Shown here: piece after piece, positions 33,404 through 39,866 of the stretch | Numbering within the stretch: position 1 is the first letter of the stretch | Layout: every line of letters begins with the position of its first letter | NCBI GenBank assembly: GCA_002839765.1 | Contig: PGYR01000003.1 | Span: 1-43,387, forward strand | Direction of reading: 5' to 3' | DNA length: 43,387 nucleotides | Source: Ignavibacteriae bacterium HGW-Ignavibacteriae-4 | GTDB lineage: Bacteria > Bacteroidota > Ignavibacteria > Kapaibacteriales > UBA2268 | Translations under genes and position numbers: made by a program | The notes under the pieces: generated by a model | Databases searched by the model: none | What the model was told of the DNA's origin: nothing | Seen by the model: the letters and a program-made list of their open reading frames with translations, nothing else

Positions 33404-35335
33404 CTATCTTCTAAATAAATATTTAAAAAGTATGTCAAAATCTAATGAAAGCGAATAGTTATCAAGGTAATGATTGTTCAATTCTGCTATCATTTTTTCT
33501 TTTAATTTCTGTGGCTCGCTTATTTGAGCGAGTCCAATAATACCTAATTTTCCTTTATCTGACAAACTATTGGTCTCAGGAAATAAACCAATAAATGTTA
33601 GTTTGCCAAGTAACAACTTAACGAATATATTAGTATTTCCTTTTACAATTAATAAAGGTAATCCAATAGTTAGCATCAGTAATGCAATAGAAATATCTGA
33701 AATTCTCTTGAGCAGTTTATATCTTAATTGTGATAACTTTCTTTGCTTTGCCTCTGGATTCACTCCCGATACTTCTGTAAGTATTTTTGATATTACCAAA
33801 TTATCATAATCATTGGCAAAGAATATGTGAACTAAACTATCATTTTTCAATCGTATGAATTTCGTATCATCATCAAATTGAAACTCGGTTTTATCTAATA
33901 CTATAACTTCTGTAATCGATTTATCATTTATAGTTTTCTGTATGTAATCTGGCTCACCAAGATAATCCAAATCACTAGTAGTACTTTCTTTATTACTAAT
34001 ATATCCTACAATAACGGAGTTATTATAGCTCGATTTTATATTATGAATTAGCTTTGGTGCATTTTCGTTCCAACCAACTAGTACTATTCTGTTTACTTCT
34101 TTTACATTCTTTTGTTTCTCTATTATAGAGCTCAATATCCGAGTAACAGTTATAAATACGGCGGAGAACGAAATAGTCATAAGCAATATACCACGACTAA
34201 ACGCAAAATCACGGAAGAAATAAGTAAAGAAAGTAAGTATCAATAACGAAGAGAGAAGTCCAAAAAATGATTTCCTAATAGTTTGATTTTGCTCAAAATA
34301 CTCACCAGAAAAGAGCATTGAAATAAATGTAATTATACTTAGGAATACGAAAACAGTTGGATATGCGTAATCTGGGAAAGGGAATGCTTGCCCCCATCTC
34401 AAAAACGAAGAAAGAATAAGCGATAGATTGACTATTATCAGATCTATAATAATGAATATTACATCTTTTCTATGCTTTTTGAGATAACTTATAAATGCGC
34501 GTAGTTTGATACCTAACCTAAGAAATGCAAAGAATACCTTAGATTTCCCATAGTGTTTACGAGCAAAAATTTCCATAGCATCATAGAAGTGTTTCGTTTC
34601 ATTCAGAGTACTTCGTTTCGAACTCTCACCTTTGAAATGAGTAATAGTCGTTTTAGGATAGTATGTAACTCTATAGCCAGCTTGCTTGATTCTATAGCAT
34701 AAATCTAAATCCTCACCATACATAAAGAAGCTTTCATCGAAACCATTTATCTGCTTTAAGACATCAGTCCTAGTAAACATAAAAGCACCAATCAAAGCAT
34801 CTATGTCGTTCGTCTCATTTTCATTTAGATAGCTGAGATTATACTTTGCGAATAATTTTGATTTTGGGAATAATCGTTGAAGACCAAAGAGTTTACAAAA
34901 AGAAGCCCAAGGAGTTGGGAATCCCCTTCTACAAGCAGATTGGAAAGTACCATCTAAATTAAGAACTTTACACCCCGAAGTACCTATATCTGGATTAGAT
35001 TCCATATAGTCGTGCATCACTTGCAAAGTATCTGGTTCTATTAGAGTATCAGGATTGAGAATTAGAGTATATTTGCCATTAGCAATATTGAATCCAAGAT
35101 TATTTGCTTTACCGAACCCTAGATTTGCTTCCGAGTAAATATAGTAGAAATTATTTTCTGATTTAGATAGCTCGCTGAATATCTCTTCCGAGCCATCAGT
35201 CGAGGCATTGTCAACTACGATTATCTCATATCGCAAATTGGTCGTAGATTTGTTAATCGAGCTTATACACTGCGAAAGGAAGTCCTTCACATTGTAATTC
35301 ACAATTACGATGGATATGTCAATATTGGGTTGCAA
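33404..35335 (-). CDS. GT2 glycosyltransferase fused to a degenerate sugar-phosphate transferase
   Basis: This 643-residue protein is a fusion. Residues ~5-270 are an active-looking GT2 rhamnosyltransferase-type domain (VIVNYNVKDFL, VVDNASTDGSEE, LILNPDTLIE, FMYGEDLDLCYRIK). Residues ~290-400 hold four membrane helices. Residues ~413-500 form a Rossmann-like CoA-binding domain (NRIVLVGWNENAPKLI). Together the last two mirror the N-terminal half of WbaP/WcaJ-type transferases. The C-terminal part (541-643) keeps the KRISDISIALLMLTIGLP helix, GKLTFIGLFPE (cf. GDMSIVGPRPE), GLAQI and a final LDFDILFKYL. It has lost the middle, including the KFRSM stretch and the catalytic Asp-Glu. The start is the only available start codon, a TTG 15 nt after an in-frame stop. 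Confidence 0.85.
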   Translation of the reverse strand: MQPNIDISIVIVNYNVKDFLSQCISSINKSTTNLRYEIIVVDNASTDGSEEIFSELSKSENNFYYIYSEANLGFGKANNLGFNIANGKYTLILNPDTLIEPDTLQVMHDYMESNPDIGTSGCKVLNLDGTFQSACRRGFPTPWASFCKLFGLQRLFPKSKLFAKYNLSYLNENETNDIDALIGAFMFTRTDVLKQINGFDESFFMYGEDLDLCYRIKQAGYRVTYYPKTTITHFKGESSKRSTLNETKHFYDAMEIFARKHYGKSKVFFAFLRLGIKLRAFISYLKKHRKDVIFIIIDLIIVNLSLILSSFLRWGQAFPFPDYAYPTVFVFLSIITFISMLFSGEYFEQNQTIRKSFFGLLSSLLILTFFTYFFRDFAFSRGILLMTISFSAVFITVTRILSSIIEKQKNVKEVNRIVLVGWNENAPKLIHNIKSSYNNSVIVGYISNKESTTSDLDYLGEPDYIQKTINDKSITEVIVLDKTEFQFDDDTKFIRLKNDSLVHIFFANDYDNLVISKILTEVSGVNPEAKQRKLSQLRYKLLKRISDISIALLMLTIGLPLLIVKGNTNIFVKLLLGKLTFIGLFPETNSLSDKGKLGIIGLAQISEPQKLKEKMIAELNNHYLDNYSLSLDFDILFKYLFRR

Positions 35336-35350
35336 TGCTTCACTAGAAGG

Positions 35351-36064
35351 TTATTTTGAGATTTTGACTAAGCCCAACTTGAGCTTCCACACCATAAAAA
35401 TAGCTTCGTACACAATTTTTTTGCTCATTTTTGATTCGCCTTCCAACCTGTCAACAAATATGATTGGAATTTCTTTGACTTTTGCTCCTTTCTTCCAAAG
35501 TCTATAAGTCATCTCTATTTGGAAACTGTAACCATTAGATTTTACTTCGTTGAAATTGATTTTGGAAAGAGCAGTAGCTCTGAAGCATTTGAATCCACCA
35601 GTTGCGTCTTTGACATCCATACCAGTAATAACTCTAGTATAAAGATTAGCAAAATAACTTAGAAGCAATCTTTTCAAAGGCCAATTAACTACATTTACAC
35701 CTTTGATATATCTAGAACCTAGTACTACATCGTATTCTTGTATATACTTCAAGAAGTTCGGTATCTCTTCTGGATTATGAGAGAAATCTGCATCCATTTC
35801 CATAATATAATCATAACCATTATCTAGGGCGTATTTGAACCCAGCAAGATATGCCGTGCCGAGTCCCATTTTCCCTTCACGCTCAATTAAATGAATCCGG
35901 TTAGACTCTAGCTTCTTGTCTCTAACCAGTTTGCCTGTTCCATCGGGAGAATTATCATCTACTACTAGTACGTCTATCTCATCGTGAACGGAGAATATTT
36001 TGTCTATTATTCTGACTATATTCTTACTTTCGTTGTATGTCGGTATTACTACTATTGCTTTCAT
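35351..36064 (-). CDS. Polyprenol-phosphate mannose synthase-like GT2
   Basis: The start is placed at the ATG at 36064, 1 nt after the upstream stop (TAATATG); ATG 36079 adds five residues. The 237-residue protein resembles DPM1-type enzymes: AIVVIPTYNESKNI, VLVVDDNSPDGTGKLV, KMGLGTAYLAGFKYAL, IMEMDADFSHNPEEI (DxD), VLGSRYIKGV and KDATGGFKCFRATALS. It lacks a GtrA-type membrane tail. It would transfer a sugar, commonly mannose or glucose, to a polyprenyl phosphate, making a lipid-linked donor for reactions outside the cytoplasm. It lies between the initiating transferase and the fusion GT2. Confidence 0.92.
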   Translation of the reverse strand: MKAIVVIPTYNESKNIVRIIDKIFSVHDEIDVLVVDDNSPDGTGKLVRDKKLESNRIHLIEREGKMGLGTAYLAGFKYALDNGYDYIMEMDADFSHNPEEIPNFLKYIQEYDVVLGSRYIKGVNVVNWPLKRLLLSYFANLYTRVITGMDVKDATGGFKCFRATALSKINFNEVKSNGYSFQIEMTYRLWKKGAKVKEIPIIFVDRLEGESKMSKKIVYEAIFMVWKLKLGLVKISK

Positions 36065-36065
36065 A

Positions 36066-37541
36066 TTATGTTTGTCCATGTCCTTTGAACACTAACCAAA
36101 TTGTCCGAATAATTATTTCAAAATCTAATTTCAACGACATATTTTCAATATAATAAAAATCGTCTTTAGTTCTATTTTCTATTTCTTCTAAACTGAGTTC
36201 GTGTGACTCATATTTTATCTGCCACCAACCTGTAATCCCTGGTCTGACTTTGTGACGGCGATTATAATAATCTAACTGTTCCGAAAACATTTTTACAAAT
36301 TTCGGCTGCTCTGGTCTAGGACCTACTATACTCATATCTCCGATGAAGCAATTCCAAAACTGAGGGACTTCATCAAGATGAGATTTTCGCAAAAACTTAC
36401 CGAATTTAGTAACCCTTTTATCGCCAACTACAGTCCATTTTTGTTCTGCATCTGGCTTGGCAGGTACCATCGATCTAAATTTATAAATCTTGAATTCTTT
36501 ACCATGTCTCCCCACTCGTGGTTGAGTATAGAATACTCCACCTTTCGATTCTAGTGATATAGCCAAAGCTAGCAGGAGCCAAACAGGCAATCCAATGATA
36601 AGTACCAAAGTACTAAAAACTATGTCGAATATTCTTTTAGCAAAACTTTGCCATGGCTTCATTAGATTCAAATTCACATCTATGAGAGGAATACCATAAA
36701 GATTAGTAGTCTTAGATTGACCAGTGAATATATGATACAAATCTGGCTCTATTTTAACGCTAATATTATTGTCCTTGCATATCTGAACTATATTGAACAT
36801 ACTAGCTCTATGACTCATCTTAGAGCCAATTACTATAGAATCTGGCTTGTATTCTTCTAATATTTTCATGAAATCATTGATGGATCCTATATTAGGAATC
36901 AAATCTCTTGCTTCTTCTAGCTCTTTATTTTCTGAAGTACTGATATAGCCTAATGGTCTAAAACCCCACCCTGGAGAAAGCTGCATTTTTCTTGCTATTT
37001 GAAATACTTTTTCTTTCTTACCAATGAAGATGGTACGTAAATTTATAACTTTTCTTTTTCTCAAAGAGAGTTGTATTCTTCTAGCAATAGTTCTAAATAT
37101 TATAACAAAGACACTTAACATTATAAAGTTGATAATAATCAACATTCGAGGATTTGTCTGTATATTAGTCAATATTACAATTGAAAGCATAATACAGCCA
37201 AAACCCACTAGCTTGAGCATAGTAAATATTTCATCAATTGGAGACCGCTCATACCAGTTCCTATACATACCATTGATTGCAAATATGGATAACCAATAGA
37301 TAACTATTACAATTGCTGGATAAATGAAATAAGTCCAATCCTGGTTAAGATTCGGTTTTATTTCACTGTAAATACTTGTTTCAAATCTAATATAATACTG
37401 TACAGCATAACTGATAACAATAGCCAAAATATCAGCTGTTAGCTCTAAATAGAGAGGCAATATCAAATTCTTAAACCTCGTAGAATAAGAAGTTTTGATT
37501 TGCTCAGTTATGATTTTACTATTTTCTACAGCTATACTCAA
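36066..37541 (-). CDS. Undecaprenyl-phosphate sugar-1-phosphate transferase (WbaP/WcaJ type)
   Basis: This 491-residue membrane protein likely starts the repeat unit by moving a sugar-1-phosphate to undecaprenyl phosphate. It has four N-terminal membrane helices (about 28-160), a Rossmann-like domain (about 167-290), a hydrophobic hairpin (KRIFDIVFSTLVLIIGLPVW), and a complete catalytic domain: QPRVGRHGKEFKIYKFRSM, KSHLDEVPQFWN (D390/E391), GDMSIVGPRPEQP and RPGITGWWQI. The only usable start is a TTG overlapping the preceding stop (TTGA). It is the intact counterpart of the degenerate domain two genes downstream. Confidence 0.95.
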   Translation of the reverse strand: MSIAVENSKIITEQIKTSYSTRFKNLILPLYLELTADILAIVISYAVQYYIRFETSIYSEIKPNLNQDWTYFIYPAIVIVIYWLSIFAINGMYRNWYERSPIDEIFTMLKLVGFGCIMLSIVILTNIQTNPRMLIIINFIMLSVFVIIFRTIARRIQLSLRKRKVINLRTIFIGKKEKVFQIARKMQLSPGWGFRPLGYISTSENKELEEARDLIPNIGSINDFMKILEEYKPDSIVIGSKMSHRASMFNIVQICKDNNISVKIEPDLYHIFTGQSKTTNLYGIPLIDVNLNLMKPWQSFAKRIFDIVFSTLVLIIGLPVWLLLALAISLESKGGVFYTQPRVGRHGKEFKIYKFRSMVPAKPDAEQKWTVVGDKRVTKFGKFLRKSHLDEVPQFWNCFIGDMSIVGPRPEQPKFVKMFSEQLDYYNRRHKVRPGITGWWQIKYESHELSLEEIENRTKDDFYYIENMSLKLDFEIIIRTIWLVFKGHGQT

Positions 37542-38671
37542 TCTAATCCTTTTCTACTCCATTTTGCATTTTGATTACCATATAGATAATGCAATATCCC
37601 TTTTATGAAACCGATATTCATAGAGACAAAGAACAGTGGTATTTTTAGCGGATTGGGCATTTTAGCTTTTTCTAATAAGAAACCTATAGCACTTATAACA
37701 AGCAATACACTAAATAGATAAGCGGTAATTAATCCAAAATGCGTATCCAACATAAAAAGTGAAGTAACATAAGCTAATAACAAGAATAAAGAAGAGAACC
37801 ATCTAAGAATCTTATGAGACCAAAGGAAGAAAGCACTCCATCCGTTACTAATCGAAAGTAAATCTTTGAAAGCAAATATAGTGGATAGTCCACCACCTAC
37901 TAGTCGCTTTCTACGAGAGTAATCTTCAAAGAAATTTGATTTACGTACTTCGTATATTTTATTATTCTCATCAAAATAGACACGCTTTCCTTTCTTTATA
38001 CTCGTTAGTATAGAGTGTAAATCATCGCAATATTTATCTGAAGGAATACTATCGAAAATATCTTTCTTAATTATATAGCTTCCAAGAGAGTTAACACAAG
38101 AAGCTATTTCACTCTCATTTCTTCTAATATATGATTCATATTTCTGATAAATTGATTCGCCTTCTTTTGAATCTTCACCACTCTTAGTTCTCATCTCTAT
38201 TGGGCAGATAATAATCCCAACATCAAGCTTACCGAAGTTTTCAAGTATATTTTTTATACTATTTTCTTTCAATCTAAAATCAGCATCTATGAAAAGAAGA
38301 TTCTCATTTTTAGATTCTTTTACTAATTGATTTAGAGTTTGGTTTTTACCTTGTCGTTCAAAATCAAAAACTCTGACATATTCACTATTGAGCGCTTTTA
38401 CAAACTCTACAGTTCTGTCATTGCTACCATCAGAGCCAACTAGAATCTCCAAATTGAGACCTGAAATATCTGATTGTAGAATGGATTCAATACAATCGAC
38501 TATATGATCTTCTTCATTATACGCAGCTATTATAATACTTAGCGAGTTTATAGTTTCGTTTCTATACTTTAATTTATTTTTTGGAAGTATAGCAAGGATA
38601 ATCGGATAGATAACCAATGGATAAGCAAATAGAATAAGCAAAACAGCTAGTATAATAGACATTACATCCAT
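37538..38671 (-). CDS. Membrane-bound GT2 glycosyltransferase, copy B
   Basis: This 377-residue protein has an N-terminal membrane helix (SIILAVLLILFAYPLVIYPI), a GT-A domain (LSIIIAAYNEEDHIVDCI, VGSDGSNDRTVEFV, LLFIDADFRLKEN with DxD) and RRKRLVGGG near where processive GT2s have QxxRW. Three or so helices follow at the C-terminus (FFLWSHKILRWFSSLFLLLA onwards). It is built like hyaluronan/cellulose-synthase-type GT2s but shorter. It is clearly a tandem paralogue of the gene just upstream (38721-39866). It ends by overlapping the TTG of the initiating transferase. The sugar is unknown. Confidence 0.9.
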   Translation of the reverse strand: MDVMSIILAVLLILFAYPLVIYPIILAILPKNKLKYRNETINSLSIIIAAYNEEDHIVDCIESILQSDISGLNLEILVGSDGSNDRTVEFVKALNSEYVRVFDFERQGKNQTLNQLVKESKNENLLFIDADFRLKENSIKNILENFGKLDVGIIICPIEMRTKSGEDSKEGESIYQKYESYIRRNESEIASCVNSLGSYIIKKDIFDSIPSDKYCDDLHSILTSIKKGKRVYFDENNKIYEVRKSNFFEDYSRRKRLVGGGLSTIFAFKDLLSISNGWSAFFLWSHKILRWFSSLFLLLAYVTSLFMLDTHFGLITAYLFSVLLVISAIGFLLEKAKMPNPLKIPLFFVSMNIGFIKGILHYLYGNQNAKWSRKGLD

Positions 38672-38720: not shown

Positions 38721-39866
38721 TCACTCTAATCCTTTTCTACTCCATATTGCGTTTTGTTTTTTCTTATAAAACTGAATAATACCTTCTACAAATCCAATAT
38801 TCATAGAGATAAAGAATAATGGTAGTTTAAGTGGGTTATTAATACGATTTTTTTCTAATACATATCCTATTATACTTAAGACTATTGTAATCGAGAAAAA
38901 GTACATAAAAATAGCACCGATTGCTGTATCTAAAATAAAGAATGAAGCTAAATATGCGAGTATAAGTATAACGGCAGAGTACCATCTGAGTATTTTGTGT
39001 GACCATAGGAAGAGTGAAGTCCACCCATAAGTTGGATTAAGTAGTTTAGGGAAGCTAAATATTGTCGCTAGTCCTCCTCCAACTAATCTTTTACGCCTTT
39101 GATATTCTTCACCAAAGTTTCGCTCTCTTACGTCCACTATATTTATTTTTTTGCTAAATATGACCTTTTTCTTGTTTTCTATAGTTACAAGTAATGAATA
39201 AAGATCATCGCATACTTTGTCATTAGGGAATTTTTGGAATAGCTCTTTGCGGATAGCATGGCTACCGAGTGAGTTAATATTGCTCTTTAGCAAAGATTCT
39301 CTTTCTCTAAGGAAGCTATCATATTTCTGATAGAAAGATTCACCTTTAGATCCTGTGTTGTCATCAGCTTGGCTGAACTCAACAGAGTAAACTAAACAGC
39401 CAACCTTATCTTTCAATATTGCATTTGTTTGCTTTAGTGATTCAGTTTTTAATCTACAATCTGCATCTAGAACTAACATTATAGAACCCGTCATCTCATC
39501 GGATAAGTGATTTAGAATAGCATTTTTACCAACTCTTTCATGTCTATAATACTTTACGTTGTCGTATTCTTGAGCAATTTTTTTGATTATTTCATCTGTT
39601 TTATCTGTCGAACCATCTGAACCGACAAGTATTTCTAATTTTGAATGAGGATATTCAGCTTTTATAACTGAGTGGATACACTCATATATATAATCTTCTT
39701 CGTTATAAGCCGCGATCAGGACTGAAATTTTTTCTAGATTCTCATCGTCATTTCCAAAAACAATGGTCTTGTTCACAGTCAAAATATACAATACAACAGG
39801 ATATATTATATAGACATAACTAACTAGGAGTAAAGACAATAGCAATATAAATAGAGATATACTCAT
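38721..39866 (-). CDS. Membrane-bound GT2 glycosyltransferase, copy A
   Basis: This 381-residue protein has the same plan as copy B: an N-terminal helix, a GT-A domain (ISVLIAAYNEEDYIYECI, VGSDGSTDKTDEII, MLVLDADCRLKTESL), RRKRLVGGGLATIFSF, and C-terminal helices (LFLWSHKILRWYSAVILILA). Both copies end in KxNAxWSRKGL, which shows recent or strongly constrained duplication. It probably adds one residue of the repeat unit or primes with a related sugar. It follows the Wzi-like gene by 6 nt and precedes copy B by 49 nt, one of the widest gaps in the operon. Confidence 0.9.
   Translation of the reverse strand: MSISLFILLLSLLLVSYVYIIYPVVLYILTVNKTIVFGNDDENLEKISVLIAAYNEEDYIYECIHSVIKAEYPHSKLEILVGSDGSTDKTDEIIKKIAQEYDNVKYYRHERVGKNAILNHLSDEMTGSIMLVLDADCRLKTESLKQTNAILKDKVGCLVYSVEFSQADDNTGSKGESFYQKYDSFLRERESLLKSNINSLGSHAIRKELFQKFPNDKVCDDLYSLLVTIENKKKVIFSKKINIVDVRERNFGEEYQRRKRLVGGGLATIFSFPKLLNPTYGWTSLFLWSHKILRWYSAVILILAYLASFFILDTAIGAIFMYFFSITIVLSIIGYVLEKNRINNPLKLPLFFISMNIGFVEGIIQFYKKKQNAIWSRKGLE

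Follow-up and report, generated by a model that had tools for sequence, protein, structure and literature searches.

The closest described relatives of the gene reported here are the large monotopic PGTs (Lg-PGTs) of the WbaP and WcaJ type (TIGR03025; PF13727 plus PF02397), in which, as in our gene, a membrane bundle and a Rossmann DUF are combined with a re-entrant helix carrying a K-R-x-x-D signature and a Pro, and with terminal helices. For PglC, passages of two reports describe a Lys7-Asp169 salt bridge by which the globular domain holds the re-entrant helix, and list Arg88 and Arg145 as contacts of Und-P (PMC6133551, PMC10519829). Part of a third report describes Bi-PGTs, in which functional domains are fused to the PGT core (PMC10942596).

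Here we report that a gene in a 43,387-nucleotide stretch of contig PGYR01000003.1 from Ignavibacteriae bacterium HGW-Ignavibacteriae-4 (hereafter the window) encodes a GT2 glycosyltransferase fused to a large PGT that has lost its catalytic residues. The gene occupies positions 33404-35335 of the minus strand, the strand of all window features described below up to position 37541, and encodes 643 aa from a TTG start. Its N-terminal domain (residues 1-284; 34484-35335) is a GT2 catalytic domain by Pfam match (PF00535, E 5.1e-28), by alignment, in which the GT-A acidic motifs are kept and D42, N94-P95-D96, E208, D209 and H233 are invariant across 94 fusion rows, and by fold, the best solved-structure matches to model residues 2-288 being a Leptospira GT (6p61), RmlT, WrtF and TarS (Z ~22-25), with GalNAc-T2 also among those listed. 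The domain is followed by a membrane four-helix bundle (residues 285-412; 34100-34483; model helices 289-314, 327-342, 353-373 and 381-412), a Rossmann-like DUF recognized by Pfam and in the model (PF13727, 'CoA_binding_3'; residues ~413-510; 33806-34099), a homologue of the re-entrant membrane helix (residues 541-565, K543 R544 xx D547 ... P560; 33641-33715; placed by hhalign, model and alignment), the site of a missing block (residues ~565-575; 33611-33643; placed by hhalign and anchor spacing) and a PGT C-terminal remnant (residues 576-643, with G577, G583, K596, Y623 and D632; 33407-33610; placed by hhalign and alignment). The large PGT architecture, a four-helix bundle and PF13727 DUF ahead of the PGT core, is present in the fusion. 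PF13727 matched residues 353-479 with 31.4 bits (cutoff 25), and residues 572-639 scored 26.3 bits against PF02397, just below the 27-bit gathering cutoff and over profile positions 95-173 of 179 only. The AlphaFold2 model (mean pLDDT 91.9, pTM 0.85) places the parts in the order GT2, helix bundle, Rossmann-like domain, long helix (537-565) and two terminal helices. WbaP was absent among the listed Foldseek/VIA matches to the whole model, lists that were filled by the GT2 domain.

The PGT homology of the C-terminal half rests on profile comparison, since direct BLASTP between the fusion and the window's intact PGT is weak (best E 0.001); a phmmer search of this half against PDB sequences returned no PGT (best E 0.31, ammonia monooxygenase chains). 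When a family alignment of 94 fusions (A1) was compared with 40 intact Lg-PGTs, including the window's own, hhalign joined the two with probability 100 and E 2.9e-45 over 373 columns. The alignment contains one large gap, of ~60 residues, corresponding to residues ~332-393 of the intact PGT (P0002) and absent from the fusion. In the intact enzyme this block holds a hairpin, KFRSM (354-358) and the Asp390-Glu391 dyad, and KFRSM and the dyad are invariant in all 40 intact sequences aligned. Neither KFRSM, DExPQ nor GPRP was found in the 643-aa fusion, and with the dyad, the KFRSM-type and the GPRP motifs absent, the C-terminal half falls outside the catalytic monotopic PGTs. A first-pass annotation of the window had proposed from the sequence an intact GT2, a C-terminal half on the WbaP/WcaJ plan and the loss of the KFRSM block and of the catalytic Asp-Glu; the Pfam, fold and profile results above uphold it on each of these points.

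The residues that survive are informative as to what the C-terminal half may do. K543, D547, G583 and D632 are identical in all 94 A1 rows, R544 is Arg in 81 and P560 is Pro in 85 of them, and the Arg of GPRP is gone. In a wider set of 146 rows the four anchors are identical in 140, 141, 146 and 144, respectively, short of strict invariance, which slightly lowered our confidence in the explanation preferred below. Within the C-terminal half, the A1 invariant residues lie in the re-entrant helix, a GDMS-like turn and the terminal helix, and none in the DUF. PglC was mapped onto the fusion through the alignment of the intact PGT; the offset of 4 used for this was deduced from the Lys7-Arg8 pair. 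In this mapping Lys7, Arg8, Pro24 and Asp169 correspond to K543, R544, P560 and D632, and Arg88, Asp93 and Glu94 fall into the lost block. The determinants of the re-entrant helix, namely the Lys-Arg pair, the helix-breaking Pro and the Asp partner of the Lys, are present by sequence. Arg145 has no Arg counterpart even in the window's intact PGT, so that its position is uninformative for the fusion. As judged from the alignments, the survivors would mostly be residues that shape or hold the re-entrant helix, the residues of the chemistry having been lost, and this pattern lends support to the earlier suggestion that the stripped domain is a membrane dock.

The extent of the deletion is graded. 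The spacing between the K543 and G583 positions is 103-106 residues in the 40 intact enzymes, 71-77 in eight rows from KSB1, WOR-3 and Neomarinimicrobiota, 43-53 in 118 of the 146 fusion rows, 40 in the window fusion and 26-27 in three rows, with 78 in L097. Long forms retain a degraded segment near the lost dyad (for example, LPQLMQVLKGDMSIVGS in L158), with no Asp-Glu preceding it. The spacing series fits a history in which catalysis would have been lost before the loop was trimmed.

Full-length fusions without internal stops were found in 52 of the 60 genomes searched, own genome included, counting one (G041) whose first match covers residues 5-568 and whose remainder was shown by a separate search. 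Three genomes (G019, G026 and G033) hold fragments, at or apparently at contig ends, and five (G016, G028, G031, G032 and G046) gave weaker matches only (best E 1.3e-37 to 1.5e-9), two of these five being at least 98% complete. Phylum-wide, matches at E 1e-40 or better were obtained in 138 of 198 genomes, in some of them through the GT2 part alone. The closest named records of the fusion are Ignavibacteriota MAGs with 85-91% protein identity, and the named relatives (best 80 of 253) include members of Ignavibacteriota, Chitinophagaceae, Bacteroidales, Thermochlorobacter, KSB1, WOR-3 and Neomarinimicrobiota. A cultivated relative, Lacibacter luteus (L138), also has the fusion in full length. 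Among 155 distinct ORFs of at least 500 aa, none carries DExPQ or DMSxVGPRP in its C-terminal half, and the KFRSM-like strings of two (L063 and L139) lie outside the PGT core and are due to chance. The first-pass annotation had proposed searching relatives for the same fusion with the same deletion, and for a catalytic domain in its place; the former is conserved in several phyla, and the motifs of the latter occur at this place in none of these ORFs. The idea that the gene is simply decayed or misassembled was rejected and retains next to no probability, given the 52 uninterrupted full-length copies and the lack of the catalytic motifs in all 155 ORFs.

In a tree built by a quick method from 48 fusion and 40 intact PGT sequences, two long rows and ~20 rows of odd composition among them, one branch (SH-aLRT 100) separates the two groups completely. 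Residues 540-643 are under purifying selection, with dN/dS of 0.10-0.17 in six pairs among four congeners, in a stretch where dS is itself low; for several region-pairs dS was inestimable (value -1). As a separate observation, synonymous sites are unusually conserved among these four congeners over the last ~90 codons of the gene (33404-33670), where dS is low. Identical codons occur at 19 of 23 invariant residues in 571-600, 13 of 25 in 601-630 and 13 of 13 in 631-643, and the identical-codon fraction is 0.09-0.35 in most other segments of the gene. This conservation perhaps reflects an accA promoter or another embedded element; a promoter scan of the 3' end was uninformative (5 promoter-like sites, 2.7 expected, sd 1.7).

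Reduced forms of the fusion also occur. By length and hydropathy, 185 distinct ORFs were assigned to 151 full forms, 23 D-type (short-tailed GT2 for which at most one membrane segment is predicted), three B-type (GT2, bundle and Rossmann domain), three C-type (GT2 and bundle, no Rossmann domain), four GT2 only and one unclassed. Bacteroidales account for all three C-type and 12 of the 23 D-type forms, and a Rossmann remnant is discernible by eye in several of the short D-type tails. Some Bacteroidota thus retain parts of the module only, and the module is dispensable in places. Four fusion forms (L136, L137, L149 and L154) are 963-965 aa long, with ~300 additional C-terminal residues. Other architectures were encountered as well. 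In G043 a different GT2 (26% identity over 123 residues) is fused to a catalytically intact large PGT (L206:1075-3438), and the same genome additionally has a pseudo-PGT fusion; in L209:1123-3603 (G111) and L210:53-2395 (G151) a polytopic transferase of the WecA type (PF00953) and an intact large PGT (PF13727+PF02397) form a single ORF.

An intact large PGT of the EPS_sugtrans/WcaJ type (36066-37541; 491 aa), the proposed partner of the fusion, lies two genes upstream, as the first-pass annotation had noted. It scores 227.5 bits against PF02397 and 417.2 bits against TIGR03025, carries KFRSM, DExPQ and GPRP, and is related to the solved WbaP and PglC; its model is fair (pLDDT 80.9, pTM 0.71). 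Between the two genes stands a further GT2 gene (35351-36079), which we take to be DPM1-like, and accA (PF03255; 32447-33400) is the downstream neighbour of the fusion. Upstream of the intact PGT, two adjacent and similar membrane GT2 genes (37538-38671 and 38721-39866) form an apparent tandem duplication.

Neighbourhoods were compared by sequence likeness of the genes in 96 loci of at least 9 kb, in 93 of which the fusion was placed. A GT2 like that at 35351-36079 is found at -1 in 39 loci and an accA-like gene at +1 in 45, and an Lg-PGT with KFRSM and GPRP is present in 40 of the 96; the 39 of these that were aligned all have the dyad. By genome coordinates, a same-strand Lg-PGT lies within 4 kb of a long fusion in at least 65 of 95 genomes (within the order at least 11 of 16, among other members of the class at least 28 of 30, and beyond it at least 26 of 49); among the matches listed, at most 30 of the 95 are without one nearby. 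The Lg-PGT is upstream of the fusion in 43 of the 65 and downstream in 22, and slow change of gene order alone is insufficient to give a pairing that occurs in two orders. Within the window's class, conserved order alone is no proof of a functional link, since accA adjoins the fusion about as often (45/96). Several Bacteroidota loci have unrelated neighbours (GH3, LysE, inositol monophosphatase and RecR). Among the matches listed, all 138 genomes with a fusion match have an Lg-PGT match and the 19 genomes without an Lg-PGT are all without the fusion, a co-occurrence that is weak because 17 of the 19 come from one family (f26). Six short-tailed genes lie 1.6-4.5 kb from a same-strand Lg-PGT (6 of 25 short-tail genomes), and 8 of the 25 are without a PGT match among the matches listed. 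The Lg-PGT match that adjoins the fusion in another genome (G204:C22:133455-134861) contains one in-frame TAG.

The explanation that we consider probable takes the fusion for a pseudo-PGT of ancient origin whose task is to hold a second-sugar GT2 on the membrane next to the initiating PGT. A GT2 would have been fused to an Lg-PGT long ago; the PGT part would then have lost its catalytic residues, the loop that held them being trimmed away, and the membrane bundle, Rossmann DUF and re-entrant-helix scaffold would have stayed under selection. The tail would seat the GT2 on the inner leaflet in PGT geometry, a predicted topology, and the GT2, presumably active, would attach the second sugar to the first, Und-PP-linked one that the co-encoded intact Lg-PGT supplies, possibly within a PGT/pseudo-PGT complex. 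A role of the dead PGT module as membrane dock appears likely from the pattern of conservation, and a second-sugar role of the GT2 is reasonable in its genomic context; a physical, putative GT2-PGT complex is possible.

Such a complex could take a specific form, in which the intact Lg-PGT dimerizes with the pseudo-PGT instead of with itself, joining the initiating PGT and the second glycosyltransferase in one channelling complex. We regard this proposal as tentative, and a direct heteromer of the two proteins as speculative. The heteromeric partner suggested by the first-pass annotation has indirect support at most, from co-location with an Lg-PGT and from homology with a module that is dimeric in WbaP. 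According to part of one report, it is largely the DUF with its beta-hairpin that keeps the WbaP dimer together (PMC10942596), and a sequence counterpart of this hairpin is visible by eye in many fusion relatives, five D-type forms (L164, L169, L171, L174 and L185) even terminating on it; in the window protein, however, the corresponding stretch is modelled as helix and coil, whereas the hairpin region of the intact partner forms two strands in its model. Co-location with an Lg-PGT in two gene orders, extending to the six short-tailed genes, speaks for pairing, but up to 30 of the 95 genomes are without a nearby Lg-PGT among the matches listed, several Bacteroidota relatives have dropped the membrane bundle, the pseudo-PGT or both, and a homodimer of the fusion would fit equally. 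The strongest version, in which a multi-phylum pseudo-PGT assembles with the live Lg-PGT by shared fold and its second-sugar GT2 receives the first sugar directly, as a built-in initiation complex, seems doubtful to us.

The module could also be the inert remnant of a GT2-PGT that formerly had both activities, retained only as a membrane anchor. The intact GT2-PGT fusion found in a relative (L206), albeit with another GT2, and the loss of module parts in some lineages would agree with this, but the re-entrant-helix scaffold is conserved at the residue level with low dN/dS and the PGT fold is retained across several phyla, and we find it unlikely. Alternatively, the Rossmann DUF might be the selected part, a sensor of UMP or UDP-sugar regulating the GT2, with the remainder as anchor. 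Part of the WbaP report describes binding experiments that implicate its DUF in uridine-nucleotide binding (PMC10942596), and B-type and, by eye, several D-type forms keep the Rossmann-like part; C-type forms, however, keep the bundle without it, and the invariant residues of the C-terminal half in A1 lie outside the DUF, which makes this reading distinctly improbable.

To our knowledge, it is still unsettled in bacterial glycan assembly how a second glycosyltransferase locates the scarce Und-PP-sugar made by an initiating PGT. A fusion that is conserved, lacks the PGT active site and would keep its membrane seat is well suited to testing whether PGT and GT are coupled in an initiation complex. 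Our searches of the open-licence PMC literature turned up neither a pseudo-PGT nor such a GT2 fusion, and nothing on this gene among its papers on Ignavibacteria glycosyltransferases; the fusion would be a pseudoenzyme in the PGT superfamily, none of which we found described there. Unlike WbaP and WcaJ, it is without Asp-Glu, KFRSM, an equivalent of PglC Arg88 and the PRP motif, and it has a GT2 in front. Like the Bi-PGTs, it unites a PGT-type domain with another enzyme domain in a single polypeptide, but its PGT domain is dead, the intact GT2-PGT counterpart, with another GT2, being that of L206. The Leptospira GT (6p61), RmlT, WrtF and TarS resemble the GT2 part only, with which they share the GT-A fold.
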